Part shown: in pieces, positions 410 through 46,365 of the stretch
Numbering within the stretch: the stretch's first letter is position 1
Layout: every line of letters begins with the position of its first letter
Assembly: GCA_017460835.1 (NCBI GenBank)
Contig: JAFUAD010000016.1
Location: 1 to 63,017 of the forward strand
Reading direction: 5' to 3'
Length of the DNA: 63,017 nucleotides
Source of the DNA: Oscillospiraceae bacterium
Lineage (GTDB): Bacteria; Bacillota; Clostridia; Oscillospirales; Ruminococcaceae
Made by a program: the position numbers and the translations under genes
Notes under the pieces: generated by a model
What the model was told of the DNA's origin: nothing
Databases searched by the model: none
The model's input: the letters and a program-made list of their open reading frames with translations, nothing else

Positions 410-520
410 ACATTATATCTGGTTATAGAGGAAATTTCAATGGGAGCGGGTGAAAAAAGTTTAACGGGGAATTGCCGGGGAGTAAACCCGGAGGCCGGCA
501 CTGCCGGCTTATATCACATC
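410..520 (-). repeat. dispersed promoter module, copy A
   Basis: This is one of four full copies of an approximately 110-bp repeat. Reading away from the -10 box it holds TATAAT, a 17-nt spacer, TTGAAA, a pyrimidine-rich tract equivalent to CACCCGCTCCCA, a T-run, a conserved GCCGGGGAGTAAA-CCGG block and a hairpin (GCCGGC-ACT-GCCGGC, 494-508). The other copies are at 5890-6000, 41435-41541 and 46256-46365. All have the same orientation relative to the downstream gene. Confidence 0.75.
412..440 (-). promoter_or_regulatory. sigma-A promoter of the YezG-like gene (module copy A)
   Basis: On the minus strand the sequence reads TTGAAA, 17 nt, TATAAT, a near-consensus housekeeping promoter ending about 60 nt before the ATG at 351. 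It is the core of the dispersed promoter module described at 410-520. Confidence 0.75.
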
Positions 521-568
521 CATTCTGCAAAAATCAAGGGCGCATGCCGTGCTTTTTCGACAAACTGA

Positions 569-594
569 CGCAGACGGTCGTGTGATCGTCTGCG
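569..594 (-). terminator. inverted repeat downstream of the XRE regulator, possible terminator
   Basis: An 8-bp inverted repeat (CGCAGACG / CGTCTGCG) with a 10-nt loop lies about 55 nt beyond the stop of the regulator at 648. No strong T-run follows on the minus strand; a short one (CTCGTTTTG) follows on the plus strand. The terminator role is tentative. Confidence 0.4.
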
Positions 595-647
595 CCTCGT
601 TTTGATTCGGTTACCAGCCCCGGCCGGGGCGCTTTATCCGGAACCGT

Positions 648-1754
648 TTATTGCGCGGTCCTCTCTTTCAGCTTCTTCATGAGCCTTTCAAAGCGCGCAT
701 TGCCGCTGAATGCCGCACAGAAATTCGTCTCCGGGTCGGTGATGATTCTGAATACGTTATCATATGCCGTATCGGGACTCGTTTTGCCGGTATATTCGCG
801 CTTGTCGTCCAGCTCGGAGAGCCAGCAGGGCGCATATTTTTCACCGTCCGGGCGCGTCTCAAAGCGGTCGGCATGGCCGTATGCGGCTTCCAGCATTTCG
901 AGCGCTTTTTCTTCTTCGCCGAGCTTTAAGAAGCACATTGCCTCTGTCACAGCATTGACCGACAACGCACCGTGAAACACATTTGCTTTTCCGCCGGTTA
1001 TGAGATCAATCAGGGCATCGTCCGCCTTCAGAATTTCAATTTTCTGTTCATCGGTGTATGCATCATCGCGGCAGATTTTCCAGAACAGAGCATGCATCAT
1101 CTGCGTAAAGCTGTTCAGCAGCGCCGACTGCCTCCGCGCCAGTGCTTCCTTTCCTTCGAGCACATCCGCTTCATACATTTCTCTCGTGCCCGTGATATCG
1201 GGAAGCGACGCGATGATCTCCCTTGCCTTTTCCTTTTCATTGAGATGCAGGTACTGGAAAATCAGAAGCTGCTTCGGAAAGCTGCTGTCTGCGGTCGGCT
1301 TGCAGTATTGCAGCGCCCTCTCGCACAGCGCGATGATCTCGCCGGACTTTTCCCTTTTCAGCTCCTCCGTATCCGCCCTGCCCTGCCGGAAATAGAGACT
1401 CTGCAAAGCGAATGCAAGCTGACTGAGCAGCTCGGGCTCGTTGGGATACGTTTTCAGCTGCTCTCTGAGATACTCCGCAAGCCCCTCCTGATCGCCCTGC
1501 TCGCTGAATTTCATCGCATGACGAAGAATCTTCTGCACCTCGTCCTCCTTGCGGCGGATGTCCACACCGAGCAGCCGGTCGGTCGTGACATCAAAGAAAT
1601 TTGCAAGCGCCGGAAGCTGCGAGATATCGGGTGCGGTTCTGCCGCATTCCCACTGGCTCACCGCCCGCGAGGTGATGCCGAGCGCTTCCGCGAGCTGTTC
1701 CTGTGTAATGTTCTGTTCATGCCGAAGCTGCCTGATCGTTGCTCCGATTGCCAT
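648..1754 (-). CDS. XRE-family transcriptional regulator with helical repeat C-terminus
   Basis: The N-terminus (about residues 3-60) is a Cro/CI-type helix-turn-helix: IRQLRHEQNITQEQLAEALG, then SRAVSQWECGRTAPD and LPALANFFDVTTDRLLG. The remaining ~300 residues are alpha-helical and TPR-like (for example LLSQLAFALQSLYFRQGR and ALEMLEAAYGHADRF), as in cytosolic regulators that bind a peptide or small ligand. The ATG at 1754 is preferred to the GTG nine bases upstream because AAGGAG lies 8 nt before the ATG and overlaps the GTG. It has its own promoter and a palindromic site just upstream, which suggests autoregulation. Target genes are unknown. Confidence 0.8.
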   Translation of the reverse strand: MAIGATIRQLRHEQNITQEQLAEALGITSRAVSQWECGRTAPDISQLPALANFFDVTTDRLLGVDIRRKEDEVQKILRHAMKFSEQGDQEGLAEYLREQLKTYPNEPELLSQLAFALQSLYFRQGRADTEELKREKSGEIIALCERALQYCKPTADSSFPKQLLIFQYLHLNEKEKAREIIASLPDITGTREMYEADVLEGKEALARRQSALLNSFTQMMHALFWKICRDDAYTDEQKIEILKADDALIDLITGGKANVFHGALSVNAVTEAMCFLKLGEEEKALEMLEAAYGHADRFETRPDGEKYAPCWLSELDDKREYTGKTSPDTAYDNVFRIITDPETNFCAAFSGNARFERLMKKLKERTAQ

Positions 1755-1776
1755 AATCCTCACTCCTTGTTTGATT

Positions 1777-1790
1777 CAAAGGCGCCTTTG
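1777..1790. promoter_or_regulatory. 14-bp perfect palindrome, candidate operator
   Basis: CAAAGGCGCCTTTG lies between the predicted promoter (1799-1827) and the RBS of the XRE regulator, just downstream of the expected start point. That is a usual place for an autoregulatory operator. The protein-binding role is inferred. Confidence 0.4.
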
Positions 1791-1798
1791 CTGATATC

Positions 1799-1827
1799 AT
1801 GATAGCGCATTTGCGCGTGATTTGCAA
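1799..1827 (-). promoter_or_regulatory. promoter of the XRE regulator
   Basis: The minus strand reads TTGCAA, 17 nt, TATCAT, ending 45 nt upstream of the ATG at 1754. The spacer contains an internal GCGCAAATGCGC inverted repeat. Confidence 0.6.
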
Positions 1828-1919
1828 GGAAGTATTTGTGCAGCGGAAGTATCGCGCAGCTTTGATTCTTCATGATCCTCCGGCTCGCCGCTGCCGCAGG
1901 CATAACCCTTTCCTGTGTA

Positions 1920-2456
1920 TCACACGATCGAAAGTCCCAGCCTGTATGCCGCATCCGTTTCGGCACGCCCGATGATATCGCCCTTGTCCTTCACGCCGCG
2001 GACGAGTATTTTGCCGCAGTCCTGCAAGTGAAAGAAATCAAGAATCATCTGATACTGCATCAGAATCGGATCAAACAGATTCGGAAGTTGTGCCGCGCCG
2101 ACCAGAAGCAGCGCGAGCTTCCGGATTGCAAATGTGTTTCGCATCGGTGTGTGCAGACGGTCGATGATTGCCTTCAGTTCGGCGCTGATGCCGTAGAAAT
2201 AAACCGGCGACGCGATCACCAGAACATCCGCACACCGCAGCTTTTCATAAATCGCGTCCATGTCATGATTGAAGCACGCATTGCCCTCGCGGGTGAAGCA
2301 GGTGTTGCATCCGATGCACGGCGCAATCCTGTAATCTGCAACCGAGATCATCTCGACATTGTTGTGCTGTGCCGCGCCCTCCGCAAATTTCCGTGCAAGC
2401 AGATCGGTGTTGCCGCCTTTTCTCATACTGCCGATCAGTATGACAATCTTGCTCAT
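1920..2456 (-). CDS. NADPH-dependent FMN reductase / flavodoxin-like protein (chromosomal copy)
   Basis: The protein has 178 residues. The N-terminal GSMRKGGNTDLLARKF is the phosphate-binding loop of the NADPH-dependent FMN reductase (iron-sulfur flavoprotein) family. CIGCNTCF resembles the Cys motif of iron-sulfur flavoproteins, and 'VIASPVYFYGISAELK' is the usual second FMN-contact region. It is probably a cytoplasmic electron-transfer or quinone-reductase-like flavoprotein. A longer frame to 2684 exists, but the ATG at 2456 has GGAGG nearby and matches the start of a close paralogue at 10892-11428. The two proteins differ at only about 20 of 178 positions. Confidence 0.85.
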   Translation of the reverse strand: MSKIVILIGSMRKGGNTDLLARKFAEGAAQHNNVEMISVADYRIAPCIGCNTCFTREGNACFNHDMDAIYEKLRCADVLVIASPVYFYGISAELKAIIDRLHTPMRNTFAIRKLALLLVGAAQLPNLFDPILMQYQMILDFFHLQDCGKILVRGVKDKGDIIGRAETDAAYRLGLSIV

Positions 2457-2656
2457 TGTGCTTTCCTCCGCTCCTTTTGATGATTGCAGAATTCCGTTTC
2501 GCTTGTCGATGCCGTCTGCGCGGCGCGGCCGCTTCCCGATTGTCGAAAAGCGGCCTGATCCGTTTCTTTTAGAGATCAATTGCTTCATCCGCCCGTCTGC
2601 GTTCTTCGGTAAAGATGTGCGATCGGCATTGCAGCGAAATGATCTGAAGGCTAATT

Positions 2657-2820
2657 TAGGGCGTGTTGACACTAAGCCTAACACGCGTCTTTTTGGCTGA
2701 TTTCATCCTGTTCGTCGTTAAAAATCCTTGCCGTGCGAAAGCACGCCTGCGGATTTTTGCCTAGAACGGAATAAAATCATCTCAAAAATCCGCATATTAT
2801 TTTAGTGTCAACACGCCCTA
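2657..2820. mobile_element. MITE-like element (164 bp) with long terminal inverted repeats
   Basis: TAGGGCGTGTTGACACTAA at 2657 reappears inverted at the right end (2802-2820). ATT at 2654-2656 and 2821-2823 is a possible 3-bp target duplication. There is no coding capacity. The inside carries a hairpin (CGTGC-GAAA-GCACG, 2732-2745) in an outer AAAAATCC/GGATTTTT stem. It is non-autonomous; similar end sequences occur in some DDE-transposase IS families, but the parent IS is not identified. Confidence 0.65.
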
Positions 2821-4222
2821 ATTCTGTTCCGCCCCATTCTACAGCCGAATACCCCGTCCGGTCAAAGGGGACAAGCGTTTGCGGGGCGATTTCTCTTTCC
2901 TCCTCCAGAGGAATATAAGCCATGAATACGCGCAGCATGCTGTCCGGCTTCGGTGTGATGTCCAGCTCCGCCGCGTCTGTATATGCATCGCTCTGGAAGG
3001 AAATCAAATTATAATTGTTGTGCTCCATTTTCGGGAGCCAGTATACAATAAAATCATTCATTTCCGACTCTGTCAGTCCCATATAGGTCAGCTTGTCTTT
3101 CAGAAATGCCTCAGTCTCCGGGCCCGGAACACAGAAGCCGTTTGAAAAATCGTAGTGTGTACGGTCGTCGCAGCTATCCCAGAACAGGTAGGAATGGTGT
3201 GTTCCGTCTGACAGATTCACCAATGAACCGTCCGGCTTCGCAATGACCCTCCAGCCGTCACCGTAATGCGGATAGGATGTTGACAGCCTGCTTGTATGCA
3301 GCGTCAGCTTCACAGATACAACGGTTTCGGCTGTAGGATACAGGTATATCACAGGCTTTGCCATTTCGCCGGAAAACTCAATATATGTTTTTCCGTTATG
3401 GAAGGTTTTAGCCCAGCCGTACTGACCGTTATAGCAGGTGAAAATCCATTCCGTATTATTATAATTATAGCCGATTTCCTCCAGCTCTGTGCCCTTCGGA
3501 ATCTTCAGAAATGACGAATATTCTTCGCCGGGTCCGCTTCTTAAATTCAGCCCCCCGACTACTGTCTCACAGTGCGAGGGGTAGTCAAGATAACAGTCCG
3601 GAACAATAAAGCCGTTTGACACGGAATCTCTCGGCGGTTCGGTCTGAGCCGGCGGAGCATCTTTTGTAATGTAAGCCGATTTACACCAGCCCTCATATCC
3701 CTTATACTTGACAAAATACCACATCGTCCCGTCTTTTCCCTGGCCGGTCCCGTATATTTCGACAAGCGTTCCCTTTTTGATCCCTTCACGAAATACATAA
3801 TCCGCATCAGGATCCGGCTGCTTTCTCATCATCAGATTGGACTTATTTGTGTTGACATATCCGCTCATCATATATGCGTAGTTCTCCGGGTAGGATACGA
3901 CATCCGATTCCGATAAGGCGGTGACAGTCTCCGTAACAGACGTTTCAGTCTCAGATGCTTCGGCCTCATAGGTTTCGGTCTCGGATACATCGGTCTTTGA
4001 TCTTTCCGTAATCTCAGCGGGAGCGGTTGTTTCTGTCAGCGCGGAGGAAGAATCCGAAACAGCGGGAGGAGCGATTTCTGTAATATCGCCGGCAGTTATG
4101 AGCGAATCGTCCATTCTGCCTTTGTCATTGGGATTCCGCATCAGCTTATACCCGATGAGAAACGCGCCGATTACAAGCAGGAGTGTTCCGCCCGCCCAGA
4201 AAATGATCAGTTGTTTTTTCAT
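2777..4222 (-). CDS. membrane-anchored SH3b-domain surface protein, 3' end modified by MITE
   Basis: The protein has 481 residues. Residues 5-28 form an N-terminal membrane anchor (IIFWAGGTLLLVIGAFLIGY). A Ser/Thr/Glu-rich spacer follows (to about 110), then two bacterial SH3-like domains (about 112-190, with MYFVKYKGYEGWCKSAY-like strands, and 210-285, with LNLRSGPGEEYSSFLKIPKG). The C-terminal domain starts KPVIYLYPTAETVVSVKL and contains PHYGDGWRVIAKPDGSL and YLFWDS, a conserved module of unknown function in secreted Firmicute proteins. SH3b domains suggest binding to peptidoglycan or glycans outside the cell. The last 14 residues (LGRVDTKIICGFLR) and the stop lie inside the MITE, so the native C-terminus was replaced. 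The junction falls at EWGGTE, where relatives seem to end, so function may survive. Confidence 0.75.
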   Translation of the reverse strand: MKKQLIIFWAGGTLLLVIGAFLIGYKLMRNPNDKGRMDDSLITAGDITEIAPPAVSDSSSALTETTAPAEITERSKTDVSETETYEAEASETETSVTETVTALSESDVVSYPENYAYMMSGYVNTNKSNLMMRKQPDPDADYVFREGIKKGTLVEIYGTGQGKDGTMWYFVKYKGYEGWCKSAYITKDAPPAQTEPPRDSVSNGFIVPDCYLDYPSHCETVVGGLNLRSGPGEEYSSFLKIPKGTELEEIGYNYNNTEWIFTCYNGQYGWAKTFHNGKTYIEFSGEMAKPVIYLYPTAETVVSVKLTLHTSRLSTSYPHYGDGWRVIAKPDGSLVNLSDGTHHSYLFWDSCDDRTHYDFSNGFCVPGPETEAFLKDKLTYMGLTESEMNDFIVYWLPKMEHNNYNLISFQSDAYTDAAELDITPKPDSMLRVFMAYIPLEEEREIAPQTLVPFDRTGYSAVEWGGTELGRVDTKIICGFLR

Positions 4223-4419
4223 ATGCTCACATCCTTTGACAGTATCGCATCAATTTACCGTAGTCTCATCACCGGTATCAAGCTGCACGCCGATTCTGAA
4301 GTTATACATTTTCTGTATATCGGCAGGGTTGTACTTGCATGACGGCAAGCATAACGCAGTCCCGGATTCCCGGCCCGGAATCGGATTATATCAAAAAAAC
4401 CCGATTCTTATATGTGTAT
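4223..4419 (-). other. leader of the SH3b gene
   Basis: About 195 nt of leader separates the promoter at 4420-4448 from the ATG at 4222. It holds an inverted repeat (GAATCGG / CCGATTC) around a T-run near 4377-4408, which could act as an attenuator. No known riboswitch or open frame is recognised. Confidence 0.35.
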
Positions 4420-4448
4420 AATATACCATAAATTTAATAGATTGTCAA
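4420..4448 (-). promoter_or_regulatory. promoter of the SH3b gene
   Basis: The minus strand reads TTGACA, 17 nt, TATATT. It is the only good promoter in the gap upstream of the gene at 2777-4222. Confidence 0.65.
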
Positions 4449-4660
4449 TGGATATAGGTATAATTCTCCCGGATTTCGTAGCTGATCGGGATAGCAATCC
4501 ATGCTCATCACGCAGCACAAGCAGCCTGATGAAGCGTCCGCAGACGATCGCCGAAAGGCTGAATAAAAGCAAAAAGAGGGGCCCACCAAAGACGGCGAAT
4601 CCCCTCAGAATTTTTCTCCGTAGTCTCCAAATAGTGTCCAAAGCCCATTTCACAATAAGA
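4449..4660. other. gap without a recognisable gene
   Basis: Nothing coding is supported between the SH3b promoter and the left element boundary. A GAGGGG / CCCCTC inverted repeat followed by a short T-run (about 4574-4617) could be a plus-strand terminator or a gene remnant. A minus-strand 81-codon frame here has no RBS and no family signal. Confidence 0.35.
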
Positions 4661-4693
4661 TACGCTGTTCTCCGAATATCGGAAAACAGCGTA
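4661..4693 (-). terminator. former tRNA-Lys terminator, left of the element
   Basis: TACGCTGTT ... AACAGCGTA with an inner TCCGA-ATA-TCGGA stem lies just outside the left direct repeat. In the empty site this would sit directly downstream of the tRNA-Lys gene, so it is probably its original terminator, displaced by integration. Confidence 0.45.
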
Positions 4694-4710
4694 TTTACGA
4701 AATATTCATG

Positions 4711-4733
4711 AGTGAGAAATGAGGGGTTCGAAC
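4711..4733. repeat. left attachment site (23-bp direct repeat)
   Basis: This 23-bp sequence (starts AGTGAGAAATGAGG, ends GGTTCGAAC) is identical to 13556-13578, which is the 3' end of tRNA-Lys including the T-loop. Such duplications of tRNA 3' ends mark tyrosine-recombinase integration. The integrase gene is 79 bp away. Confidence 0.85.
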
Positions 4734-4783
4734 ATCCAACAATTTCTCATGAAAATCGCGTATCTATGTGACTATTTTTGCAG

Positions 4784-4803
4784 CGTGTGATATTCGTGTG
4801 ATT
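4784..4803. repeat. arm-type integrase site candidates, left end
   Basis: Two copies of CGTGTGAT spaced 11 bp (about 4784 and 4796) lie between the left att repeat and int. The same octamer occurs four times just inside the right end (13402-13454). Confidence 0.5.
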
Positions 4804-4811
4804 TTTTGGTT

Positions 4812-5849
4812 TCACTGCACGGAGCCGCCGATTGCAGACATGAAATAATCGTTGATTATCCGCTGGTATTCGGCTTCTTTGGAGACTGTCGTGTGCGTGT
4901 AAACGGACTTCATAATGTTGTCAGTTGACCAGCCGCCGAGCTTCTGGATGTAGTTGCTTGGGATGCCCAGATCGTTCAGCGTGGTCGCAAACGCATGACG
5001 CAGCTTGTGGAAAGTAATGTCATAGCCGGCATCTTTCATCAGCTTGCGAAAACGGTACTTCATGCACTGATATCCGAGCGGAACGATGAAATCATCCGGA
5101 CGCCTGTGCGGAACCTGCTGAATCAGGTGCAGCAGATACGGCGGCAGCGCGTTGCTGCGGGTGCTGTCATAGGTCTTGTTGCAGTCGCGCAGCACATCAT
5201 GCCCGTCGAGATAGATCTTTGCACGGCAGATATCAATTGTCTTGCCGTCTTTTGCAATATCCCGAAACTGCAATCCGCGCACCTCGCTGATGCGCAGCGA
5301 CAACCACATCGCCAGCAGACACGGCAGCTCCATATTCGAGCCGATAATCACCTTGAGCAGCTCGGAAGTCTCCGGCAGCGTGACGGTCTTTTTCCGCCGC
5401 GGGGGCAGTGTGATCCGCTTGGTGTTGATTTCGATCCCCTGAACCGCCAGCACGCTTTTCAGCAGTGACAGCGCCGCACGCAGCGATTTGTTTGACAGCC
5501 GCTTTGCATCCAGATTGACAGCGCGCTGAATGTCGTTGATTGTCAGCTGCACAATGTTCATGCGCATAATCGCTTGCAGACGGGTTTCCTTGATGACTGT
5601 GTACCCTCGGATCGTAGACGGAGAGAGCACTTGATCCCGCGCCTCGATGTACTGGCTGAATGCCTGCTCGACCGTCATGGCACGCGGCACAATACCGAGC
5701 GCTTTGTTTGCCTTGAAGTCCAGCGCAAGCCGGATTGCTTCTTCCGCGGTATCTGCCGTGAAGGATTTGACCGTGCGTTTGCCGTATTCGTCATAGCCGA
5801 CAATGACCTGTGTCCGGTAGCTTCCGGACGGGAGCTTTTTTGCTTTCAT
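4812..5849 (-). CDS. int: tyrosine recombinase (integrase)
   Basis: The protein has 345 residues. Residues 1-50 (GSYRTQVIVGYDEYGKRTVKSF) resemble the AP2-like arm-DNA-binding domain. Residues 60-150 form a SAM-like core-binding domain. The catalytic domain shows Arg in SLRISEVRGL, the H-x-x-R box in TFHKLRHAFATTLNDLG and the Tyr nucleophile in IMKSVYTHTT. The length is usual for Tn916-like phage/ICE integrases. It would integrate and excise the 4711-13578 element at tRNA-Lys. AAAGGAA lies before the ATG. Transcription comes from promoter-module copy B, unusual because the same module drives chromosomal housekeeping genes. Confidence 0.9.
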   Translation of the reverse strand: MKAKKLPSGSYRTQVIVGYDEYGKRTVKSFTADTAEEAIRLALDFKANKALGIVPRAMTVEQAFSQYIEARDQVLSPSTIRGYTVIKETRLQAIMRMNIVQLTINDIQRAVNLDAKRLSNKSLRAALSLLKSVLAVQGIEINTKRITLPPRRKKTVTLPETSELLKVIIGSNMELPCLLAMWLSLRISEVRGLQFRDIAKDGKTIDICRAKIYLDGHDVLRDCNKTYDSTRSNALPPYLLHLIQQVPHRRPDDFIVPLGYQCMKYRFRKLMKDAGYDITFHKLRHAFATTLNDLGIPSNYIQKLGGWSTDNIMKSVYTHTTVSKEAEYQRIINDYFMSAIGGSVQ

Positions 5850-5889
5850 ATTCGTTCCTTTCCGGGAACGAAATGCAGTAGCATTTACA

Positions 5890-6000
5890 GATACATTATA
5901 TCATATTATTACAAAAAATTCAATGAGAGCAGGTGAAAAAAGTTTCAGGATGAAATCATGGAAGTTAAAATGGAGCCGCGCACTGCGCGGTTATATCATA
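5890..6000 (-). repeat. dispersed promoter module, copy B
   Basis: It has the same layout as copy A: TATAAT, spacer, -35, a block equivalent to CACCTGCTCTCA, a T-run, then the hairpin CCGCGC-ACT-GCGCGG (5976-5990). The central block is more diverged. The stem differs from copy A yet still pairs perfectly. Confidence 0.65.
5895..5923 (-). promoter_or_regulatory. promoter of int (module copy B)
   Basis: The minus strand reads TTGAAT, 17 nt, TATAAT, ending about 45 nt before the int ATG. Confidence 0.7.
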
Positions 6001-6079
6001 GTATCGGTAAAAATGCAATAGTAAAGCCGACTGCATATTCGTTCTCATGTTCAAATGCCGATATTCCGCAAGCTCGCGT

Positions 6080-13914: not shown

Positions 13915-15981
13915 ATGGATGAAAAGAAACTGATTTCCGTCATTGTTCCCTGCTATAACGAGGAGGAGGTTCTTCCCCTCTTTTACAAGGAAATTACGAA
14001 GATTTCGGCACAGATGCAGGAGCAGCATCCGGAGCTGAGCTTCGAGTATCTGTTTATCGACGACGGCTCGAAGGACCGCACGCTCTCCAAGCTGCGCATC
14101 ATGGCGAAATATGACTCCCGCGTGCGGTATGTATCGTTCTCGCGGAATTTCGGCAAGGAATCGGCGATGTACGCCGGCCTGAAGGAGTCGAAGGGCGACT
14201 ACTGCGTCATCATGGACGCGGATCTGCAGCACCCGCCGGCGTTCCTCCCGAAGATGTATGAGACGGTCGCGAGCGGCTATTACGACTGCGCGACGACACG
14301 CCGGGTCAGCCGGGAGGGCGAATCGAAGGTTCGTTCGTGGTTTGCGCGCCGGTTTTACGGCATCATGAACAAAATTTCGCAGACCGAGATCGTGGACGGC
14401 GCACAGGATTTCCGCTTCATGACGCGGCAGATGGTCGATGCCGTTCTGTCGATGACCGAGTACAACCGGTTCTCGAAGGGTATCTTCTCGTGGGTCGGCT
14501 TCCGGACAAAGTATCTGGAGTATAAGAATGTCGAGCGCGCGGCGGGCAAGTCCTCGTGGAGCTTCTGGGGGCTGTTCCGCTACTCGATCGAGGGCATCAT
14601 CGGCTTCTCGACGGCGCCGCTTTCGGCTTCCGCAATTATCGGTGTGGTGATGTGCCTGCTCGGGCTGATTATGCTGATCGTGACTGTCATCAAGAAGATC
14701 GCGGTCGGGGAGCCGGTTGCGGGCTATCCGACGATGATCTGCACGATTCTGCTGTTCGGCGGCTTGCAGCTTTTCTGCACCGGCATTGTCGGGCTGTATC
14801 TCGGCAAGACCTTCCTTGAGGTCAAGCGCCGCCCGATTTACATTATTCGCGAGACTGAGAAGAATGCGGATCAGTTCCCGGAGCTTCCGGAGCCCGAGGA
14901 GAAGCCCGCTGAAAAGCCGGCACAGAAGGCGGTCGGCGCACAGGCCGGAAAGCCCGCCGCGCCCGCAAAGCAGGCGCAGAAGCAGCCTGTCCGGGCGGAG
15001 GTAAAGCGCGTGCAGCCGGAGAAGGACGCTGCGCTGGAGAAGGCAAGACAGCTCAAGGAGGAGACCGACGCGGAGTTCGATGCGCTGGTCGATGCGGCAT
15101 TTGAGGAGGCGGATGCAAAGAAGGCCGCCGCGGATGCTGAGAAGAAGGCTGCTGCCGAGGCTGCGAAAAAGGCTGCCGAGGAGGCAGAGCAGAAGGCCGC
15201 TGAGGAGGCTGCACAGAAGGCTGCCGATACCGCAGAGCCCGAGCAGAAGCCGGAAAAGGAAAAATTCGTTGTAGAGATCAACTATGACAACGATGACCTC
15301 TATGAGGATCTGGAGGACGAAGAAGAAGATTACGACGACGAGGATTATGACGACGAGGACTACGACGACGAGGATTACGATGACGAGGATTACGACGACG
15401 AGGATTACGACGACGAGGACTATGATGACGAGGATTATGACGACGAAGACTACGATGACGAAGACTACGATGACGAAGACTACGATGACGAGGATTATGA
15501 CGACGAAGATTACGACGATGCACCGGCAAAGCCCGTTACCAGAAAAGCGGCGCCCGCTGATGATGACGAATCCGGTCAGCCGACCTTCGGCGACAAGGCA
15601 AAGGCTGTCCTGAAGTCGATCGGCGGGAAGCTGAAGGCTCTGAAGGATAAGATCGCGGCGGCGTTCGCGGACAACAATGCGGAGAAGGCGCTGCCCGATG
15701 ATGAATACGACGATGACGACTATGACGATGAAGATTACGACGATTATGACGACGACGATTACGAAGACGACGGCTATGATGATGACGATTACGACTATGA
15801 CGACGAGGATGATGACGACTACGACGACGATGATTACGATGATGATGACTATGACGATGATGATTATGATGACGATGATTTCGATGATGATTATGACGAC
15901 GACGATTTCGATGACGACGATTTTGACGATGACGACTACGACGACCGGGGCGGAAAAAGCGGCTACCGCAGCGCGCACTGA
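13915..15981 (+). CDS. GT2 polyprenyl-phosphate glycosyltransferase with long Asp/Tyr-rich tail
   Basis: The protein has 688 residues. Residues 1-235 are a family 2 glycosyltransferase (SVIVPCYNEEEVLPLFYKE, IDDGSKDRT, MDADLQHPPAF), similar to DPM1/GtrB-type enzymes that load a sugar onto a lipid carrier at the inner membrane face. Two membrane helices follow (about 240-262 and 275-303). An Ala/Lys/Glu-rich helical segment (330-455) and two runs of a DEDYD-type repeat (about 470-535 and 595-680) form a tail as long as the enzyme. Typical family members stop near residue 320. AGGAGG lies 8 nt before the ATG. The tail is strongly acidic and probably disordered; its role is unknown. Confidence 0.85.
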   Translation: MDEKKLISVIVPCYNEEEVLPLFYKEITKISAQMQEQHPELSFEYLFIDDGSKDRTLSKLRIMAKYDSRVRYVSFSRNFGKESAMYAGLKESKGDYCVIMDADLQHPPAFLPKMYETVASGYYDCATTRRVSREGESKVRSWFARRFYGIMNKISQTEIVDGAQDFRFMTRQMVDAVLSMTEYNRFSKGIFSWVGFRTKYLEYKNVERAAGKSSWSFWGLFRYSIEGIIGFSTAPLSASAIIGVVMCLLGLIMLIVTVIKKIAVGEPVAGYPTMICTILLFGGLQLFCTGIVGLYLGKTFLEVKRRPIYIIRETEKNADQFPELPEPEEKPAEKPAQKAVGAQAGKPAAPAKQAQKQPVRAEVKRVQPEKDAALEKARQLKEETDAEFDALVDAAFEEADAKKAAADAEKKAAAEAAKKAAEEAEQKAAEEAAQKAADTAEPEQKPEKEKFVVEINYDNDDLYEDLEDEEEDYDDEDYDDEDYDDEDYDDEDYDDEDYDDEDYDDEDYDDEDYDDEDYDDEDYDDEDYDDEDYDDAPAKPVTRKAAPADDDESGQPTFGDKAKAVLKSIGGKLKALKDKIAAAFADNNAEKALPDDEYDDDDYDDEDYDDYDDDDYEDDGYDDDDYDYDDEDDDDYDDDDYDDDDYDDDDYDDDDFDDDYDDDDFDDDDFDDDDYDDRGGKSGYRSAH
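15328..15950 (+). repeat. 15-bp tandem repeats encoding the acidic DEDYD-type tail
   Basis: About twelve near-perfect 15-bp units occupy 15328-15520, and a less regular array occupies 15700-15950. The unit length is a multiple of three, so slippage would change tail length without breaking the frame. Confidence 0.85.
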
Positions 15982-39662: not shown

Positions 39663-41097
39663 CGCTTTTCTCATAAGCCGCGGCCGCCTGATAAATCTTC
39701 GCCTCGGAGAATGCCGGGCCGATGAGCTGGAAGCCAACCGGAAGCTCTGCGCCGTCCTGCGCAATTTTCCCGCAGGGAACCGAAATCGCCGGCAGACCGC
39801 CGAGATTGACCGGCACGGTGCAGATATCGCCGAGCGCCATTTCCATCGGGTCATTCGATTTTTCGCCGATTTTGTAAGCGGGCGTCGGCGCGACCGGCGT
39901 CAGCAGCAGGTCATATTTCGCAAACAGCTCCGCAAATGCGCGGATCAGCAGGGTTCTCGCCTGCTGCGCCTTCTTGTAATACGCATCGTAATAGCCAGCG
40001 GAGAGCACATAGTTTCCGAGCAGGATTCTGCGGCGCACCTCGCGCCCGAAGCCCTGCGTGCGGGTCTTGCGGTAAAGCTGATCGAGATCCTCGATGCCCT
40101 CGGCGCGGAAGCCGTACCGGATGCCGTCAAATCTTGCGAGATTCGACGATGCCTCGGCGCAGCAGAGCACATAATATGCAGGCAGCGCATAGCTGACCGC
40201 CGGCAGCGAGCATTCCTCGATGACCGCGCCCGCCTGTTCGAGCTGCTTCGCTGCATTTTTCACAAGCTCCGCAACCTGCGGATGAATGCCCTCGCCGAAA
40301 TATTCCTTCGGCATTCCGATTCGCATGCCGCTGAGGTCTTTGCCGATCAGCGCGGAATAATTCGTATCATACTGCGGCAGAGAGGTCGAATCGCGGCGGT
40401 CGTGGCAGGAGATCGCCTCCAGAACCTTAGCGTTGTCCGCGACGGTTTTCGTCAGCGGGCCGATCTGGTCGAAGCTCGATGCATACGCGACAAGACCGTA
40501 GCGGGAGACCGTGCCGTAGGTCGGCTTCATGCCGACGACGCCGCAGAACGACGCGGGCTGACGGATCGAGCCGCCGGTGTCCGAGCCGATCGCAAAGGCA
40601 CACTCATTCGCCGCAACTGCCGCTGCCGAGCCGCCCGATGAGCCGCCCGGAACATAATCCGGCGCGGCGGGGTTTCTTGTGACGCCGAGCGCGGAATTCT
40701 CCGAGGAGCTGCCCATCGCAAACTCATCCATATTGGTCTTGCCGAGCATCACAGCGCCCGCCTTTTTGAGCTGCTCTGTGACGCAGGCGTCATAAACCGG
40801 CAGCCAGTTCCCGAGCATTTTCGAGGCGCAGGTCGTGCGCACGCCCTTTGTGCAGATGTTGTCCTTCATCGCAAAGGGAATGCCGGTCAGGGCGCCGGCT
40901 GTGCCGCTTTTCAGCATTTCATCGGCTGCGTCCGCCTGCCGGTATGCCTCCTCCTCCGCAACGGTCAGATAGGCACCGATTGTGCCGTCGGTCTCTGCAA
41001 TCGCAGAGAGGGCATCCGCAGCGAGCTCCCGCGCAGAGACCTCGCGCTTTTGCAGCAGCGCCGAGAGCGCCGCGATATCCATTTCACTGTACTTCAT
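39646..41097 (-). CDS. gatA: Asp/Glu-tRNA amidotransferase subunit A
   Basis: 483 residues. The amidase-signature triad is visible: Lys in IPFAMKDNICTKG, Ser in YVPGGSSGGSAAAVAANECA, and the cis-Ser/nucleophile region in AIGSDTGGSIRQPASFCGVV. It hydrolyses glutamine and channels ammonia to GatB. AAAGGAGAA precedes the ATG. The final residues (SGIAAR) and stop lie within a dispersed repeat, so the C-terminus may have been extended or altered by repeat insertion. Confidence 0.95.
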   Translation of the reverse strand: MKYSEMDIAALSALLQKREVSARELAADALSAIAETDGTIGAYLTVAEEEAYRQADAADEMLKSGTAGALTGIPFAMKDNICTKGVRTTCASKMLGNWLPVYDACVTEQLKKAGAVMLGKTNMDEFAMGSSSENSALGVTRNPAAPDYVPGGSSGGSAAAVAANECAFAIGSDTGGSIRQPASFCGVVGMKPTYGTVSRYGLVAYASSFDQIGPLTKTVADNAKVLEAISCHDRRDSTSLPQYDTNYSALIGKDLSGMRIGMPKEYFGEGIHPQVAELVKNAAKQLEQAGAVIEECSLPAVSYALPAYYVLCCAEASSNLARFDGIRYGFRAEGIEDLDQLYRKTRTQGFGREVRRRILLGNYVLSAGYYDAYYKKAQQARTLLIRAFAELFAKYDLLLTPVAPTPAYKIGEKSNDPMEMALGDICTVPVNLGGLPAISVPCGKIAQDGAELPVGFQLIGPAFSEAKIYQAAAAYEKSGIAAR

Positions 41098-41111
41098 CCC
41101 CGGTTCTCCTT

Positions 41112-41399
41112 TCAGCCGATGACCTTCGGCAGCGTAATCAGGCCGTCCTCGGATTCTGTGCCGGAAAGCAGCAGATCGCGGTCAAGGCGCGGGGAGAACG
41201 GTTCATCCTCGCGCAGGACGTTTTCGAGCGGGGCGATGTGCGCCGTCGGCTCGACCCCTGCGGTATCGAGCGCGGAAAGCTGCTGAAAGAAGCTCAGCAT
41301 CTCCGCAATGCTCGCGGAAAGCGGCGCCTCCTCCTCCTGCGGGATGTCCAGTCTGGAAAGCCAAGCCAGCGTTTCCATTGTTTTTGCGTCCAGTTCCAT
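41112..41399 (-). CDS. gatC: Asp/Glu-tRNA amidotransferase subunit C
   Basis: 95 residues: METLAWLSRLDIPQEEEAPL, MLSFFQQLSALDTAGVEPTA, LREDEPFSPRLDRDLLL match GatC, the small linker that stabilises GatAB. It is first in the operon, 14 bp before gatA. AAAGGAGAACTG precedes the ATG. It is transcribed from promoter-module copy C. Confidence 0.92.
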   Translation of the reverse strand: MELDAKTMETLAWLSRLDIPQEEEAPLSASIAEMLSFFQQLSALDTAGVEPTAHIAPLENVLREDEPFSPRLDRDLLLSGTESEDGLITLPKVIG

Positions 41400-41434
41400 A
41401 ATCAGTTCTCCTTTTGGGTTATTGGAATCTTAGG

Positions 41435-41541
41435 TTTATTATAACATATTATAGTGGAAATTTCAATGGGAGCAGGAAGAAAAATCCGCGCGGAAGGACT
41501 GCCGGGGAGCTGAAACGGAGCCGGATTCTGTCCGGTTACAG
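41435..41541 (-). repeat. dispersed promoter module, copy C, followed by a truncated copy
   Basis: Same layout as copy A, including a CTGCCGGGGAGCTGAAACGG block and a CCGGA ... TCCGG hairpin (41521-41535). A second partial copy follows at about 41542-41580 with a good -35 (TTGAAT) but a damaged -10 (TGTAAC), so the module can duplicate in tandem. Confidence 0.7.
41438..41466 (-). promoter_or_regulatory. promoter of the gat operon (module copy C)
   Basis: The minus strand reads TTGAAA, 17 nt, TATAAT, ending about 39 nt before the gatC ATG. Confidence 0.8.
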
Positions 41542-41590
41542 CATATTACGGCGGAAAATTCAATGGGAGTGCGAAAAAAACGGAATACAG

Positions 41591-41629
41591 AAACGATCCG
41601 CCGGGAGTCAGCTCCTCAGCGGATCGTTT
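41591..41629. terminator. terminator of tRNA-Arg
   Basis: AAACGATCCGC pairs with GCGGATCGTTT. A T-run follows on the plus strand (TTTTTCTT) and a short one on the minus strand. It lies 21 bp beyond the 3' end of tRNA-Arg. Confidence 0.65.
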
Positions 41630-41649
41630 TTCTTATTGTATGCCGAAAG

Positions 41650-41723
41650 CACCCCGAACCGGAATCGAACCGATGGCCTGCTGCTTAGGAGGCAGCCGCT
41701 CTATCCTACTGAGCTATCGGGGC
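41650..41723 (-). tRNA. tRNA-Arg(CCU)
   Basis: 74 nt, no encoded CCA. The acceptor GCCCCGA pairs with TCGGGGT (one G-U), the anticodon stem GCTGC/GCAGC surrounds loop CTCCTAA (anticodon CCT), and the T-arm has TTCGATT. Discriminator base G. Own promoter at 41761-41789. Confidence 0.93.
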
Positions 41724-41760
41724 ATAGGGCGGCACCGGGCAGCCGGGGTGCCGCATTCAT

Positions 41761-41789
41761 ATTATAGCACATTCAGATGAAATTTGCAA
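41761..41789 (-). promoter_or_regulatory. promoter of tRNA-Arg, partial form of the dispersed module
   Basis: The minus strand reads TTGCAA, 17 nt, TATAAT. The flank upstream of the -35 (CCTGCACCCATTGCAAATTT) matches the module core of copies A and C, but the distal hairpin is absent. Confidence 0.75.
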
Positions 41790-41828
41790 TGGGTGCAGGC
41801 AAAATCATTTTTGCGGTAAGGTTATACA

Positions 41829-43214
41829 TTATTCCGCAGTCTCCGCCGCAAGGTTGCTGATCCAGATACCCTTGCGGATCAGCACAGCACCGATGATGAT
41901 TTTGACAATATCAACCGCCTGCACGATCGCATAGACCGCGATGACCGGCAGCTCCGTCAGGAAGCAGAGCATGAGCGCCAGCGGGAGCGTTACAGCCCAG
42001 CTGAACATGCTGTCAAAGAGGAAGGTGACGAGCGTTTTGCCGCCGGAGCGCAGCGTGAAATAAAGCGAATTCAGGATTCCCTGAACCGGGAAAAACAGCG
42101 CTGTTACGAGAATAAACATCTGCGCCAGATGCCGGACATGATCGGTCGTATCATAGAGCAGCGGGAAGACGCCGGAGAGCGCCGCCAGAATGACGGTCAG
42201 CCCGACGCAGAGCAGCCCGGTAAACCATGTCAGCGAAAACGAGTCCCGCTTTGCCTGCGCATACTGCCCGGCACCGAGCTCCTGCCCGATCAGAATGCCG
42301 ACCGCCGCGCCGAGCGCGACAAACACGACATTGAGCAGATTGCAGAGCGCATTGGAGATGTTCATGCCGGAGACAATATGCAGCCCGCGGGTCGAGTAGC
42401 ACTGTGTCAGCGCGGCAAGCCCGCCCGCCCAGAGAAATTCGTTGCAGAAGATCGGCAGGCTCTTTTTCAGCATGCGCCTTGTCAGGTCTGCGGGGATTTT
42501 CAGCGAACGCCAGACGCCGGACAGAAACGGATATCTGCTCCGGCTCCTTTTGCCGCTGACCCAGAGGATCAGCACGCCGGCCTCGAGAAATCTTGCGATG
42601 ACCGTTGCGACCGCAGCGCCGCGCACACCGAGCCGCGGGCATCCGAATTTCCCGTAGATCAGCAGGTAATTGAGCACGATATCCGCGGCGACCGAAACGA
42701 TCCCGGCTGTCATCGGCTTGACGCTCTCGCCGGTCTCGCGCAGCGTTCCGGCATAGATCTGCGTCACGGCAAAGGGCAGGAGCCCAAAGAGCATGATGTT
42801 CAGATACTGCATGCCGTAGGTCACGGTCAGCGCGGGATCGACCTCCTCGCTCTCGCCGTGCAGATAGAGCCCGATGAGCCCGCGTCCGCAGGTGAGAAAG
42901 ACAGCCAGCCCCGCGATCAGGCAGAAAAAGCTGATCTTCACCTTCATGCGGAAGCTGTTGCGGATGCCCTCGGTATTGCCCTGTCCGTAAAACTGTGCGC
43001 CGTAGATGCCGGGGCCGGAGAGCCCGCCGAAAATTGCCAGATTGAATACAAAAATAAGCTGTCCGACGATGGATACGGCGGTCATCGCCTCGGTGCCGAG
43101 GCTCCCGACCATGACATGATCGACGAGCCCGACGGCATTGGTGATGCCGTTCTGTATCATCATCGGAACAGAGAGCGCGAGTGCGCGCCGGAAAATTGGA
43201 TTTCTGATTTGCAT
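41829..43214 (-). CDS. MATE-family multidrug/metabolite exporter
   Basis: 461 residues with about 12 membrane helices in two halves. The N-terminal MIQNGITNAVGLVDHVMVGS and the second-half LNVVFVALGAAVGILIGQEL fit the MATE fold. Such proteins export cationic compounds using Na+ or H+. The Shine-Dalgarno sequence (AAAGGA) is rather far from the ATG. The promoter is not obvious. Downstream of pyrB on the same strand with a 32-bp gap, so it may be read from the asnB-pyrB transcript. Substrate unknown. Confidence 0.88.
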   Translation of the reverse strand: MQIRNPIFRRALALSVPMMIQNGITNAVGLVDHVMVGSLGTEAMTAVSIVGQLIFVFNLAIFGGLSGPGIYGAQFYGQGNTEGIRNSFRMKVKISFFCLIAGLAVFLTCGRGLIGLYLHGESEEVDPALTVTYGMQYLNIMLFGLLPFAVTQIYAGTLRETGESVKPMTAGIVSVAADIVLNYLLIYGKFGCPRLGVRGAAVATVIARFLEAGVLILWVSGKRSRSRYPFLSGVWRSLKIPADLTRRMLKKSLPIFCNEFLWAGGLAALTQCYSTRGLHIVSGMNISNALCNLLNVVFVALGAAVGILIGQELGAGQYAQAKRDSFSLTWFTGLLCVGLTVILAALSGVFPLLYDTTDHVRHLAQMFILVTALFFPVQGILNSLYFTLRSGGKTLVTFLFDSMFSWAVTLPLALMLCFLTELPVIAVYAIVQAVDIVKIIIGAVLIRKGIWISNLAAETAE

Positions 43215-43246
43215 ATTTGCGATCGGATTCCTTTGCTGTTTGTCTG

Positions 43247-44329
43247 TTATTCCTTTGTCAGTGCCCGCTCCTCACAGTATTCGCAGACGGTTTTGCCGCC
43301 GACCTGCGTGAAGTAACGCGGGAGATAATGCTCCTGTGCGGTGATGCACTTGGGATTCACGCAGCGCAGTCCCGGATCGGGGGCGCCCTTCAGAACCGGC
43401 AGTGCGGTCTCGCTTTCGAGGAGCCGGAGAATCAGCGCCATGCGGACATACATGCCGTACTGCGCCTGCTTGAAATAGAGCGCTCTGGGGTCGTCGTCCA
43501 CGGCGATCTCGATTTCATCGACGCGCGGCAGCGGGTGCAGCACCGCAAGATCGGGCTTTGCGCGCTTCATCTTTTCGGTCGTCAGGCGATAGACGTCCTT
43601 CTGCGCGAGATATTCCGCCTCAGAGAGGAAGCGCTCGCGCTGAATCCGCGTCATATACAGCACATCCAGCTCGCCGATCGCGTTGTCGAGCGAGGCTTCC
43701 GTGCGGAATTCGCAGCCCGAATCGCGGAGCAGCTTTGTAATATACTCCGGAACCTGAAGCTCCGGTGTCGAGATCAGCACAAAGCGGTTGCCCTCATAGC
43801 AGGAGAGCGCCTTGCAGAGCGAGTGGACGGTCCGCCCGTAGAGCAGATCGCCGCAGAGCCCGACCGTCAGATGATCGAGCCGTCCCTTTTCCATGTGCAG
43901 CGTCAGCAGATCGGTCAGGGTCTGGGTCGGGTGCAGGTGTCCGCCGTCGCCGGCATTGACAACCGGGCATTCCGCCGTCAGCGCCGCAGCCTTTGCCGTG
44001 CCCGCCATCGGGTGCCGGATAATCAGGATATCCGAATAGCTGCTGACGACCTTTGTCGTATCCTTGATGTTCTCGCCCTTCGAGACCGAGCTGCTCATCG
44101 GGTTGTCGAAGCCGATGATGCTGCCGCCCAAGCGGATCATCGCGGATTGAAAGCTCATCTGCGTCCGCGTAGAGGGCTCATAAAAGAGCGTCGCCATGAT
44201 CTTTCCCGCGCATGCCTGCACATAGCGCTGGGGGTGTGCGTACATCGAAGCGCCGAGCTTGATGACCTTGTTCCACCACTCGACCGGATAATCGTTCAAA
44301 TCAATCAGATGCGAATACTGCGTGCTCAT
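43247..44329 (-). CDS. pyrB: aspartate carbamoyltransferase with C-terminal PyrI-like zinc tail
   Basis: 360 residues. FYEPSTRTQMSFQSAMIRLG (carbamoyl-P loop), NAGDGGHLHPTQTLTDLLTL and LAVLHPLPRVDEIEIAVDDD are PyrB signatures. After about residue 318 a tail reads LRCVNPKCITAQEHY and KTVCEYCEERALTKE. This CxxxxC ... CxxC set matches the zinc domain of the regulatory subunit PyrI, but the nucleotide-binding half of PyrI is missing. It catalyses the first committed pyrimidine step. The start overlaps the asnB stop (ATGA), so both are coupled. Confidence 0.92.
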   Translation of the reverse strand: MSTQYSHLIDLNDYPVEWWNKVIKLGASMYAHPQRYVQACAGKIMATLFYEPSTRTQMSFQSAMIRLGGSIIGFDNPMSSSVSKGENIKDTTKVVSSYSDILIIRHPMAGTAKAAALTAECPVVNAGDGGHLHPTQTLTDLLTLHMEKGRLDHLTVGLCGDLLYGRTVHSLCKALSCYEGNRFVLISTPELQVPEYITKLLRDSGCEFRTEASLDNAIGELDVLYMTRIQRERFLSEAEYLAQKDVYRLTTEKMKRAKPDLAVLHPLPRVDEIEIAVDDDPRALYFKQAQYGMYVRMALILRLLESETALPVLKGAPDPGLRCVNPKCITAQEHYLPRYFTQVGGKTVCEYCEERALTKE

Positions 44330-46224
44330 GATGCTGCCTTCCCTCCGATCTCCTGCTCATCCTCAAAATACACCTTGTACCAGACAAGGAACATGTAAAC
44401 CGTCCAGATCTTCCGGCTGTTGTCGGCCTTGCCCTTTTTGTGGTCATCCAGCAGCTTCACGAGCTTTTCGGTGCGGAAGAACTGTGCCGCTGCGGGAGAG
44501 GTCAGCGCCTGTTTGACGGTCTCATAGCAGGCATCCTCCTTCAGCCAGACGCGGATCGGCACGGGGAATCCGAGCTTCTTCTTCGCAGCCGTGTCCGCAG
44601 TTTCCGGCGGGGTGCTCCGCTTCGCCGCGAGCCGCATCGCATATTTCGTCACATACGGCGTATCCTTGTCGGTCACGAACTTGTGTGTGACCCGGTAGCG
44701 CGTCGGAATCTGCTCCGCGACTGCCATGAGCTTCTTGTCGAGGAAGGGCACGCGCAGCTCCAGCGAGTGCGCCATGCTCATTTTATCCGCCTTCAGCAGA
44801 ATATCGCCCGCCATCCAGAGATGCAGGTCGAGATACTGCATTTTCGTGACCTCGTCGGCATCCTGCACCTTGTCATAGTAGGGCTTGGTGACGGCGGACG
44901 GGTCGGGTGCGCCGGTCTGGATTTTCAGCAGCGATTTGCGCTCCTTCGGCGAGAAGATGTAGGCATTGCCGATAAAGCGCTCCTCAAGCGTCTGCCCCTT
45001 CCGGACGAGGAAATTGACCCCGCGCTTTGCCGGCAGCACGCCCGCCGCCTTCGAGACGCCGCGCCGCAGCGCCATCGGCAGCTTGTCATACCATGTCGCG
45101 CCCGGCTCGCTGTATACATTGTATCCGCCGAAAATTTCATCGGCGCCCTCGCCCGAAAGTACGACCTTCACATGCTCGGCGGCGAGCTTGCAGACGAAAT
45201 ACAGCGCGATGCAGGACGGGTCGGCGAGCGGCTCGTCCATCTGATACTGAATCGCCGGGAGCACATCCCAGTATTCCTTCTGCGTAATCACATGGCTGAA
45301 ATTCTCTTTTCCGATCGCTCTGGAAAAGCGCTTTGCCCAGCCGATTTCATTGTATTTCTCGTCGGTTCCGAATCCGACGGTAAAGGTCTTGTCCACATTC
45401 GCGACCGCCGCGACATAGCTGGAATCGACGCCGGAGGACAGAAAGCTGCCGACCTCGACATCCGCGATCTTGTGCGCCGCGACGGAATCCTGAAAGGTCT
45501 CGGAGATCATGCGGACCCAGTCGCCGAGCAGCGGCTGCTCGTCCGCATCGAATTTGATATCCCAGTAGCGCTCGACGGTGAGCCTGCCGTCCCGATAAAG
45601 AAAATAATGCGCCGGCGGGAGCTTTTTGACGCCCGCAAAGAAGGTATCCTCCGTCGGGGAATACTGGAATGTCAGGTATTGCTCCAGCACATCCGGATTG
45701 AGCTTCTTCTCAAAGGCCGGGTGCGGCATCAACGCCTTGATCTCGCTGCCGAACAGCAGCGTCCCGTTCATCTGCGCATAGTACAGCGGCTTGATGCCGA
45801 AGAAATCCCGCGCGCCGAAGAGCGTCTTTGCCTTGTCATCCCAGATGACGAAGGCGAACATGCCCCGCAGTTTTTGCAGGAGCTCCGTTCCGTATTCCTC
45901 ATAGCCGTGAACCAGAACCTCCGAATCGGTCTCGGTGCGGAAGCTGTGCCCCTTTTTCAGCAGATCCTCGCGAATCTCCCGGTAATTGTAAATCTCCCCG
46001 TTAAAGACGAGCACAACATCCCCGGTTTCGTTGAAGATCGGCTGATTTCCCTGCTCCGTGATGTCAATGATCGAGAGACGCCTGTGTCCGAGCGCGACCT
46101 CATCATTGAGGAAATGCCCCTCTGCATCGGGCCCCCTGTGCCGGATGCGATCTGTCATCTGCCGCAGGACGCCTTCCGCGTTCTCTGCCGCCTTTGCATT
46201 GGTAAAACCGACGATTCCGCACAT
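44326..46224 (-). CDS. asnB: asparagine synthase (glutamine-hydrolysing)
   Basis: 632 residues. MCGIVGFTNA shows the Cys nucleophile of the glutaminase domain; RIRHRGPDAEGHFL and LVFNGEIYNYREIREDL follow. The synthetase domain has the PP-loop VEVGSFLSSGVDSSYVAAVA and VKVVLSGEGADEIFGGYNVY. It makes Asn from Asp, Gln and ATP. Since GatCAB is present, asparagine for tRNA may also arise indirectly. Sharing aspartate, it forms an operon with pyrB. Promoter-module copy D lies upstream. Confidence 0.95.
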   Translation of the reverse strand: MCGIVGFTNAKAAENAEGVLRQMTDRIRHRGPDAEGHFLNDEVALGHRRLSIIDITEQGNQPIFNETGDVVLVFNGEIYNYREIREDLLKKGHSFRTETDSEVLVHGYEEYGTELLQKLRGMFAFVIWDDKAKTLFGARDFFGIKPLYYAQMNGTLLFGSEIKALMPHPAFEKKLNPDVLEQYLTFQYSPTEDTFFAGVKKLPPAHYFLYRDGRLTVERYWDIKFDADEQPLLGDWVRMISETFQDSVAAHKIADVEVGSFLSSGVDSSYVAAVANVDKTFTVGFGTDEKYNEIGWAKRFSRAIGKENFSHVITQKEYWDVLPAIQYQMDEPLADPSCIALYFVCKLAAEHVKVVLSGEGADEIFGGYNVYSEPGATWYDKLPMALRRGVSKAAGVLPAKRGVNFLVRKGQTLEERFIGNAYIFSPKERKSLLKIQTGAPDPSAVTKPYYDKVQDADEVTKMQYLDLHLWMAGDILLKADKMSMAHSLELRVPFLDKKLMAVAEQIPTRYRVTHKFVTDKDTPYVTKYAMRLAAKRSTPPETADTAAKKKLGFPVPIRVWLKEDACYETVKQALTSPAAAQFFRTEKLVKLLDDHKKGKADNSRKIWTVYMFLVWYKVYFEDEQEIGGKAAS

Positions 46225-46255
46225 CGGTTACCCCTCCTTTGTCTTCATATCCTTG

Positions 46256-46365
46256 TTATTATACCATATTATGCCCAAAAACGCAATGGGCGCGGGAGAA
46301 AAAGTCCGAGGGGAAATTGCCGGGGAGTAAAACCGGAGGGCGGCACTGCCGCCTATACTACATTT
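46256..46365 (-). repeat. dispersed promoter module, copy D
   Basis: Full-length copy. Distal part: ATTGCCGGGGAGTAAAACCGG and the hairpin GGCGGC-ACT-GCCGCC (46339-46353). Compared with copy A (GCCGGC stem) and B (CCGCGC stem), both arms differ while pairing stays perfect. Confidence 0.75.
46258..46286 (-). promoter_or_regulatory. promoter of asnB-pyrB (module copy D)
   Basis: The minus strand reads TTGCGT, 17 nt, TATAAT, about 34 nt before the asnB ATG. Confidence 0.75.

Follow-up and report, generated by a model that had tools for sequence, protein, structure and literature searches.

Promoter-carrying repeats and promoter-targeting transposons are each already known. The ISLre2/TnGBS elements, with the p-MULT 3 Mutator-like transposases, insert in one orientation 15–17 bp upstream of the -35 at sigma-A promoters, and their authors see the promoter targeting as limiting the host cost (PMC3942029, in its available passages). 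The strand-biased circularising integrative elements, reported from gammaproteobacteria, commonly have four genes and terminal imperfect inverted repeats C/C′ (PMC10782965, in its available passages). Here we describe a repeat of about 90 bp present in four copies in a 63,017-nt stretch of DNA from an Oscillospiraceae bacterium (contig JAFUAD010000016.1 of assembly GCA_017460835.1), hereafter the window, and in many more copies in its Ruminococcus-like genus.

The repeat is best explained, with a probability of about 0.82, as a short, non-autonomous mobile element whose targets are -10 boxes and which restores the promoter that it interrupts. Such an element would have unlike ends, a hairpin with a 6-bp stem on the left and a sigma-A-type promoter with TATAAT at the junction on the right. 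It would insert in one orientation immediately 3′ of TATAA, i.e. within the -10 box of an existing promoter, and leave 6–8 bp, (TG)NTATAA, at both of its ends. The native -35 and spacer would be stranded above the hairpin, and the -35, spacer and extended -10 of the element would come to stand ahead of the former TATAAT and leader, so that the gene should still have a promoter, and at an unchanged distance. The new TATAA beside the hairpin would be a fresh target and neighbouring units could recombine, hence the tandem promoter arrays at ~95 bp. No description of an element that inserts within the -10 box and rebuilds the promoter was found in the open-licence PMC literature searched.

Results

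The unit and the promoter above it

Toward the gene, the unit consists of a hairpin (6-bp stem, loop AGT), CTCC, a variable linker, a T-rich stretch, CNCTCCCATTG including the -35, a 17-nt spacer that ends in about ATAATATGN, and TATAAT, the family consensus being taken from 26 copies. A preliminary description of the window had placed four copies here, each with a -35, exactly 17 nt and TATAAT and with differing stems that always pair, together with a partial copy at a tRNA-Arg and a tandem part copy at gatC. All of these were found again, the last two by a covariance model that was built from 26 copies of the host genome and supplies the E values below.

410–508, minus strand: element copy 1; hairpin 494–508, -35 435–440, -10 412–417; model E 2.7e-20
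509–537, minus strand: promoter cut by copy 1; TATAA 509–513, -35 TTGATT 532–537, 18-nt spacer
5893–5990, minus strand: element copy 2, upstream of a phage-type integrase; hairpin 5976–5990, -35 5918–5923, -10 5895–5900; model E 3.0e-18
5991–6018, minus strand: promoter cut by copy 2; TTGCAT, 17 nt, TATAA adjoining the hairpin
41436–41535, minus strand: element copy 3, upstream of gatC; hairpin 41521–41535, -35 41461–41466, -10 41438–41443; model E 1.4e-18
41533–41595, minus strand: upstream family promoter in tandem with copy 3; model E 5.7e-5
41759–41823, minus strand: solo family promoter without hairpin, upstream of tRNA-Arg (41649–41723); model E 5.2e-4
46256–46353, minus strand: element copy 4, upstream of asnB; hairpin 46339–46353, -35 46281–46286, -10 46258–46263; model E 6.6e-21
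46354–46380, minus strand: native asnB promoter, interrupted within the -10 box; TATA 46354–46357, -35 TTGCCA 46375–46380; uncut form in relatives

The four copies are each ~98 bp long. Their -35 hexamers are TTGAAA, TTGAAT, TTGAAA and TTGCGT, each followed by exactly 17 nt and TATAAT, and their stems (GCCGGC, CCGCGC, CCGGA(C)-type and GGCGGC) all pair, the gatC copy over five pairs. The gene 3′ of copy 1, putatively yezG-like, runs off the contig end, and Pfam supports an integrase, GatC and asparagine synthetase as the genes 3′ of copies 2, 3 and 4.

The hairpin is the upstream edge of the unit and lies right behind a second promoter, on which the preliminary description was silent. Directly above the hairpin stands TATAA and, 17 nt further up, a second -35. 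Of the 39 distinct hairpin copies in the host genome, 26 are preceded by a -10-like box with TTG at 17±1 nt (24 exactly TATAA), two have a near -10 and no -35, and 11 have neither. Among 80 copies in other genomes of the genus, the left end is exactly TATAA in 42, 37 of these with TTG at 17±1 nt, and TATA in 11, all 11 with TTG; a -10-like box together with TTG at 17±1 nt is present in 48.

Filled and empty sites

The asnB locus offers the comparison of orthologous loci with and without the module that the preliminary description had proposed. In 19 of 27 loci of relatives the native promoter, of the type CTTGC..AA..GTAGTATAATA, is uninterrupted, its match to the rejoined window promoter having to beat all 200 shuffles per locus; two further relatives have it by eye (L139, 23/39; L141, further upstream). 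In the window, the promoter breaks off after TATA, 94 bp follow, and then ATAAC resumes the leader, the unit's own -35 and extended -10 rebuilding TATAAT ahead of it. Family units stand at the same place in G001, G005, G023 and G045, three of the four with two hairpins, while G022 has a family promoter without hairpin and G017 neither type in the stretch read. The left (46354–46374) and right (46264–46280) spacers at asnB of the window also hold GCCCAAAA and its reverse complement TTTTGGGC, which is probably chance.

The orthologous gatC genes of relatives have a non-family promoter, a solo family promoter or, in G004, a hairpin unit. Filled and empty copies are also found within the host genome. 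Over the 141 bp leading up to TATAA, C42 and C92 share 99% identity; beyond it, C92 continues with a gene leader and C42 with the element. C14 and C78, 87.5% identical over 336 bp, make a second such pair.

Duplication at the junctions

If insertion duplicates TATAA, the adjoining bases are expected to agree at both ends, as at copy 1, where A precedes TATAA at the left and right junctions alike. We compared the two junctions in 73 copies. A pattern singled out 18 of them whose left promoter lies outside the family; it placed window copy 2 and C42 in the family class though their left promoters partly differ from the family. The base before TATAA agrees in 15 of these 18 (4.8 expected from shuffling between loci). 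When four unclear cases are left out (at a contig edge, irregularly spaced or with a family-like spacer), agreement is found in 11 of the 14 clearest insertions (mean of the shuffles 3.7, with 11 reached in 10 of 100,000).

The two positions before the junction base are TG in most copies, hence little informative. At position -4 and beyond, the 18 non-family cases have no consistent excess of agreement, with p 0.0045 at -13 alone and not at its neighbours. A longer target duplication that includes the spacer was rejected on this ground, though some tandem loci share the spacer. The duplicated stretch is therefore 6–8 bp, (TG)NTATAA, which reads as the signature of a mobile element. The target-site duplication is as in the miniature inverted-repeat transposable elements (MITEs), and so are the shortness (~90 bp), the lack of coding and the many copies. 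The short core common to both junctions is also as in tyrosine recombination, and a staggered-cut duplication would look alike.

Orientation and downstream genes

Gene context was taken from the 85 best of 144 matches of the model in the host genome, minus 7 without a fetched locus, with tandem and hairpin-less copies each counted and genes called by a home-made codon-usage script. Among these 78 matches, a same-strand gene starts within 300 bp downstream in 63 and within 150 bp in 55, an opposite-strand gene follows in 2, no gene is near in 10 and the contig ends in 3; 1 overlaps a called gene. The matches are thus not equal in all orientations; equality would have been the outcome that the preliminary description had named as speaking against it. 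The asymmetric target NTATAA would by itself fix the orientation.

The downstream genes are unrelated. They encode asparagine synthetase, GatC, glutamine synthetase III, methionyl-tRNA synthetase, RF3, Tex, arabinose isomerase, transporters and others. The Pfam scan took in 33 of the 50 listed downstream genes, and 4 of the 30 outside the window set had no Pfam match at E≤0.001. The preliminary description had offered two interpretations. The mobile promoter cassette is supported by the filled and empty asnB sites, the filled and empty copies in one genome and the 6–8 bp duplication; the co-regulated promoter class is unsupported by the downstream genes examined, and a regulator of the common upstream motif is possible.

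Family size and distribution

In the host genome, where 150 of 1919 candidates were scored, the model has its 144 matches at E≤1, hairpin-less ones included; C18 and C63 overlap with the same array repeated, so that a few places are double-counted in the match and gene-context counts. The exact GGAGNNNGGCACTGCC occurs 74 times, against 0 for a reversed-pattern control. Units often succeed each other at ~95 bp and form tandem arrays. At E≤0.001, 19 of 41 genomes are positive, 19 of 25 in the own genus and 0 of 16 in the same order outside it; the genomes are incomplete drafts, one per species, the own genome being 88% complete. A model scan of 31 of 80 named asnB loci gave 0 matches.

The family is distinct from promoters at large. 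The family upstream motif is not shared by 65 other intergenic promoters found by pattern search in 432 kb of fetched DNA, where CA precedes 6 of 65, and a general promoter consensus was rejected accordingly. Two exact element patterns matched 0 viral contigs and copy 1 matched none of the plasmid and phage records, by which spread by phages or plasmids was rejected.

The hairpin

Covariation in the stem is strong. Among 26 own copies, five of the six stem pairs are changed on both sides, in 31 cells. Among 79 distinct copies from relatives, aligned by fitting to the model, pairing holds in 98.5% of cells and both sides are changed in 83, against at most 9 with a slid partner. The variation lies mostly in the outer three pairs. 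G-U pairs are nearly absent, at 2 of 464 cells in the relatives and 1 of 156 in the own copies, which agrees no less well with a palindrome at the DNA level than with selection for an RNA helix. The selection on structure claimed in the preliminary description is thus half upheld. The palindrome is conserved as such, and causes at the DNA level (folding, conversion, enzyme recognition) would be as good as RNA. In an Rfam search, only two tRNAs scored above the gathering score and no family did so at the hairpin.

At least two other repeat families terminate in this hairpin, which on the other strand is preceded by GGAG or GGCA. Two of these, CATTATGGTGCGAAGCGAAATGGAG and AAACCCGCGAAGCCAAAATGGAG, lie at L005:13080–13870, L007:4780–5060, L163 and L151, and one forms promoterless arrays of ~95 bp. 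At L032, L151, L031 and L013:140, a hairpin in opposite orientation stands directly or nearly so before a -35 box, e.g. hairpin then TTGACA.

Integrases and other candidate movers

No transposase was identified for the element. Terminal inverted repeats were not found in 26 copies, the best 12-nt match of the left end to the reverse complement of the right averaging 5.5 (shuffled 5.9). The Y1_Tnp domain has no match in 27 of 30 genus genomes, the own included, and is matched in the other three. A Xer/dif origin was rejected, as the fetched own DNA has no stretch within 8 changes of a Firmicutes dif consensus.

The 3′ regions of one clade of phage-type integrases in the genus terminate in the same extended -10 box. 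Its members are found at C14 of the own genome and in G003, G023 and G024, at 65–69% identity by tblastn and 68–75% in the search. Downstream of their genes lie ~200 bp closing with a -35-like hexamer, 17 nt and TGNTATAA(T), beyond which the sequences diverge. Such 3′ regions with the box are present at C14, C42, C78 and C92 of the own genome and in G003, G023 and G024, the integrase gene itself lying off the contig stretch seen at C42, C78 and C92. A tRNA gene is present at 0 of 4 clade loci versus 12 of 12 loci of more distant integrases.

On a viral contig of 35.7 kb, an integrase of 63% identity is followed by a similar 3′ region with the box and, beyond that, by HNH endonuclease and terminase genes, an arrangement as would be expected of a phage attachment site (attP). 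An element stands exactly at the box in two of the four own ends (C14 and C42). The integrase clade thus appears to use the same TGNTATAAT extended -10 box as its attachment core, with its own -35 beside it. Phage integration there would exchange promoter halves between the phage and the host. The clade loci with a TGNTATAAT junction are L012:295–1880, L273, L278, L307, L308, L312 and L382:566–2541. Behind the window integrase (4812–5849, minus strand), CCATTGACA-17-TATATT at 4412–4450 could be a similar attachment box.

Another repeat and a coding region

Another dispersed repeat with the right end CCCCGATATGCCACACC occurs at L004:592, L006:4268, L007:8840, L019:4361, L020, L024:251, L028:188 and L146. 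Its end lies 17–18 bp upstream of a -35 and TATAAT in 6 of the 8 copies by script, the other two having TTG 17 bp on by eye. This site is close to the specificity reported for the ISLre2/TnGBS-type elements (PMC3942029, in its available passages). In the window, 15193–15977 is a long Asp/Glu/Tyr-rich low-complexity coding region of repeats with a 15-bp period.

Discussion

Comparison of sequences demonstrates, within its own reach, the insertion, its site and orientation, the junction duplication, the arrays and the spread in one genus. From there, the restored promoter would be active and the insertions tolerated for that reason, and the genes receiving the element probably stay on. The arrays may grow by insertion at the fresh TATAA and by recombination of neighbouring units, and the element may still be mobile at present.

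Several observations weigh against a promoter-restoring mobile element. TATA(A) is lacking directly left of the hairpin in 11 of 39 own and 27 of 80 relatives' copies, a few of the latter being one change away, and the junction base differs in 3 of the 14 clearest pairs. For 55 of the 73 pairs, the classification assigned the left promoter to the family, and it matches the right promoter throughout its length, which would be expected if much of the family came from tandem duplication or homogenisation rather than fresh insertion. Solo family promoters without a hairpin are common. At apbE and araA no usable empty site was found, the upstream regions being not comparable, and the searches identified no transposase.

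One hypothesis for the mobilisation of the element is a tyrosine recombinase using the same site. The tyrosine recombinases of resident phages or integrative elements would move the unit as a minimal attachment-site cassette, a small circle recombining with a -10 box through its NTATAA core. This reading is a narrower version of the promoter-restoring mobile element and, in our judgement, possible but doubtful. The integrase clade that ends at the same box without tRNA genes, the viral contig and the elements abutting C14 and C42 favour it, and the unlike ends without inverted repeats, the 6–8 bp core and the tandem arrays fit a recombinase cassette. However, clade integrases at 65% identity or more are present in only 4 of 30 genomes, several genomes that lack them are element-rich (G017 with 90 and G004 with 62 matches), and by eye the element ends and the integrase sites have no common sequence beyond the extended -10. 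An extension, which we consider unlikely, makes the -10 box a common attachment site in the genus, where temperate phages would integrate and swap promoter halves, and the ~90-bp cassette of hairpin and promoter would spread and build arrays by the same recombination with the hairpin as the folded recombination site. A REP (repetitive extragenic palindromic) type of element, i.e. a REP-like hairpin moved by a Y1 transposase (RAYT or IS200-IS605), is improbable. Its other strand does read as GGAG and a palindrome, and the same hairpin ends other families, but the Y1_Tnp domain has no match in those 27 of 30 genomes, the own one (88% complete) among them, on which ground a REP/RAYT origin was rejected. 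A duplicated (TG)NTATAA is not known to accompany Y1 insertion. The tag GGAG, with GGCA too in the other families, is not the GTAG/CGTC of the title of PMC3733652, in whose available text GGAG occurs 0 times at a word start.

If the hairpin at the start of the upstream transcript were an RNA device controlling the downstream gene, as an attenuator or a stabiliser, its location, roughly where transcription from the upstream promoter should begin, and its covariation would be accounted for. The near absence of G-U pairs, the unrelated downstream genes and the lack of an Rfam family above the gathering score at the hairpin all speak against such a device, and a complete second promoter downstream would bypass the hairpin, so we hold it to be quite improbable. 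That the repeat is a non-mobile promoter class, inherited vertically, equipped with a conserved regulator site and duplicated where it stands, is highly improbable. This view draws on the spacers often shared by the left and right promoters of one locus (an excess in the 55 family pairs) and on the orthologous gatC genes with solo family promoters. Yet the filled and empty asnB sites, the intragenomic pairs, the junction-base duplication in non-family promoters and the unrelated downstream genes contradict it. It is refuted for the single insertions and possible for part of the solo promoters.

Landing within the -10 hexamer and rebuilding a full promoter would be a new way of being harmless, in which the host switch is replaced and not avoided. 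It would explain by mechanism, and not by selection alone, why the copies point at genes. If active, the element would offer a natural way to rewire housekeeping promoters across the genus, such as those of asparagine synthetase, GatC, type III glutamine synthetase and methionyl-tRNA synthetase, and its tandem arrays would be ready experiments on promoter dosage. The integrase clade ending at the same box opens one possible origin to direct test.

The integron cassette arrays similarly are tandem units with a hairpin adjoining the crossover point, the hairpin here being much smaller. Putative mobile promoters are reportedly the same idea, promoters copied to unrelated genes, and a mechanism of -10-box insertion is not known for them. 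With the strand-biased circularising integrative elements, which use tyrosine recombinases, our element has in common a short junction stretch, of 6 bp in their case, that moves with the element (PMC10782965, as far as available). Like the REP sequences, it is a tagged palindrome of high copy number and extragenic position; unlike them, it has the tag GGAG, a promoter, a junction duplication and no Y1 gene in most host genomes searched (PMC3733652, available parts).

The Correia elements and other MITEs resemble it as short non-autonomous repeats upstream of genes with sigma-70-like promoters, but they are bounded by inverted repeats, which are absent here, and the passages available of PMC10969869 mention no targeting of -10 boxes. 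The closest likeness in targeting is to the ISLre2/TnGBS elements, with their oriented insertion at sigma-A promoters (PMC3942029, same passages). These have inverted repeats and a transposase and spare the promoter, whereas the element described here has no inverted repeats, inserts 3′ of TATAA within the -10 box rather than 15–17 bp upstream of the -35, and replaces the promoter.

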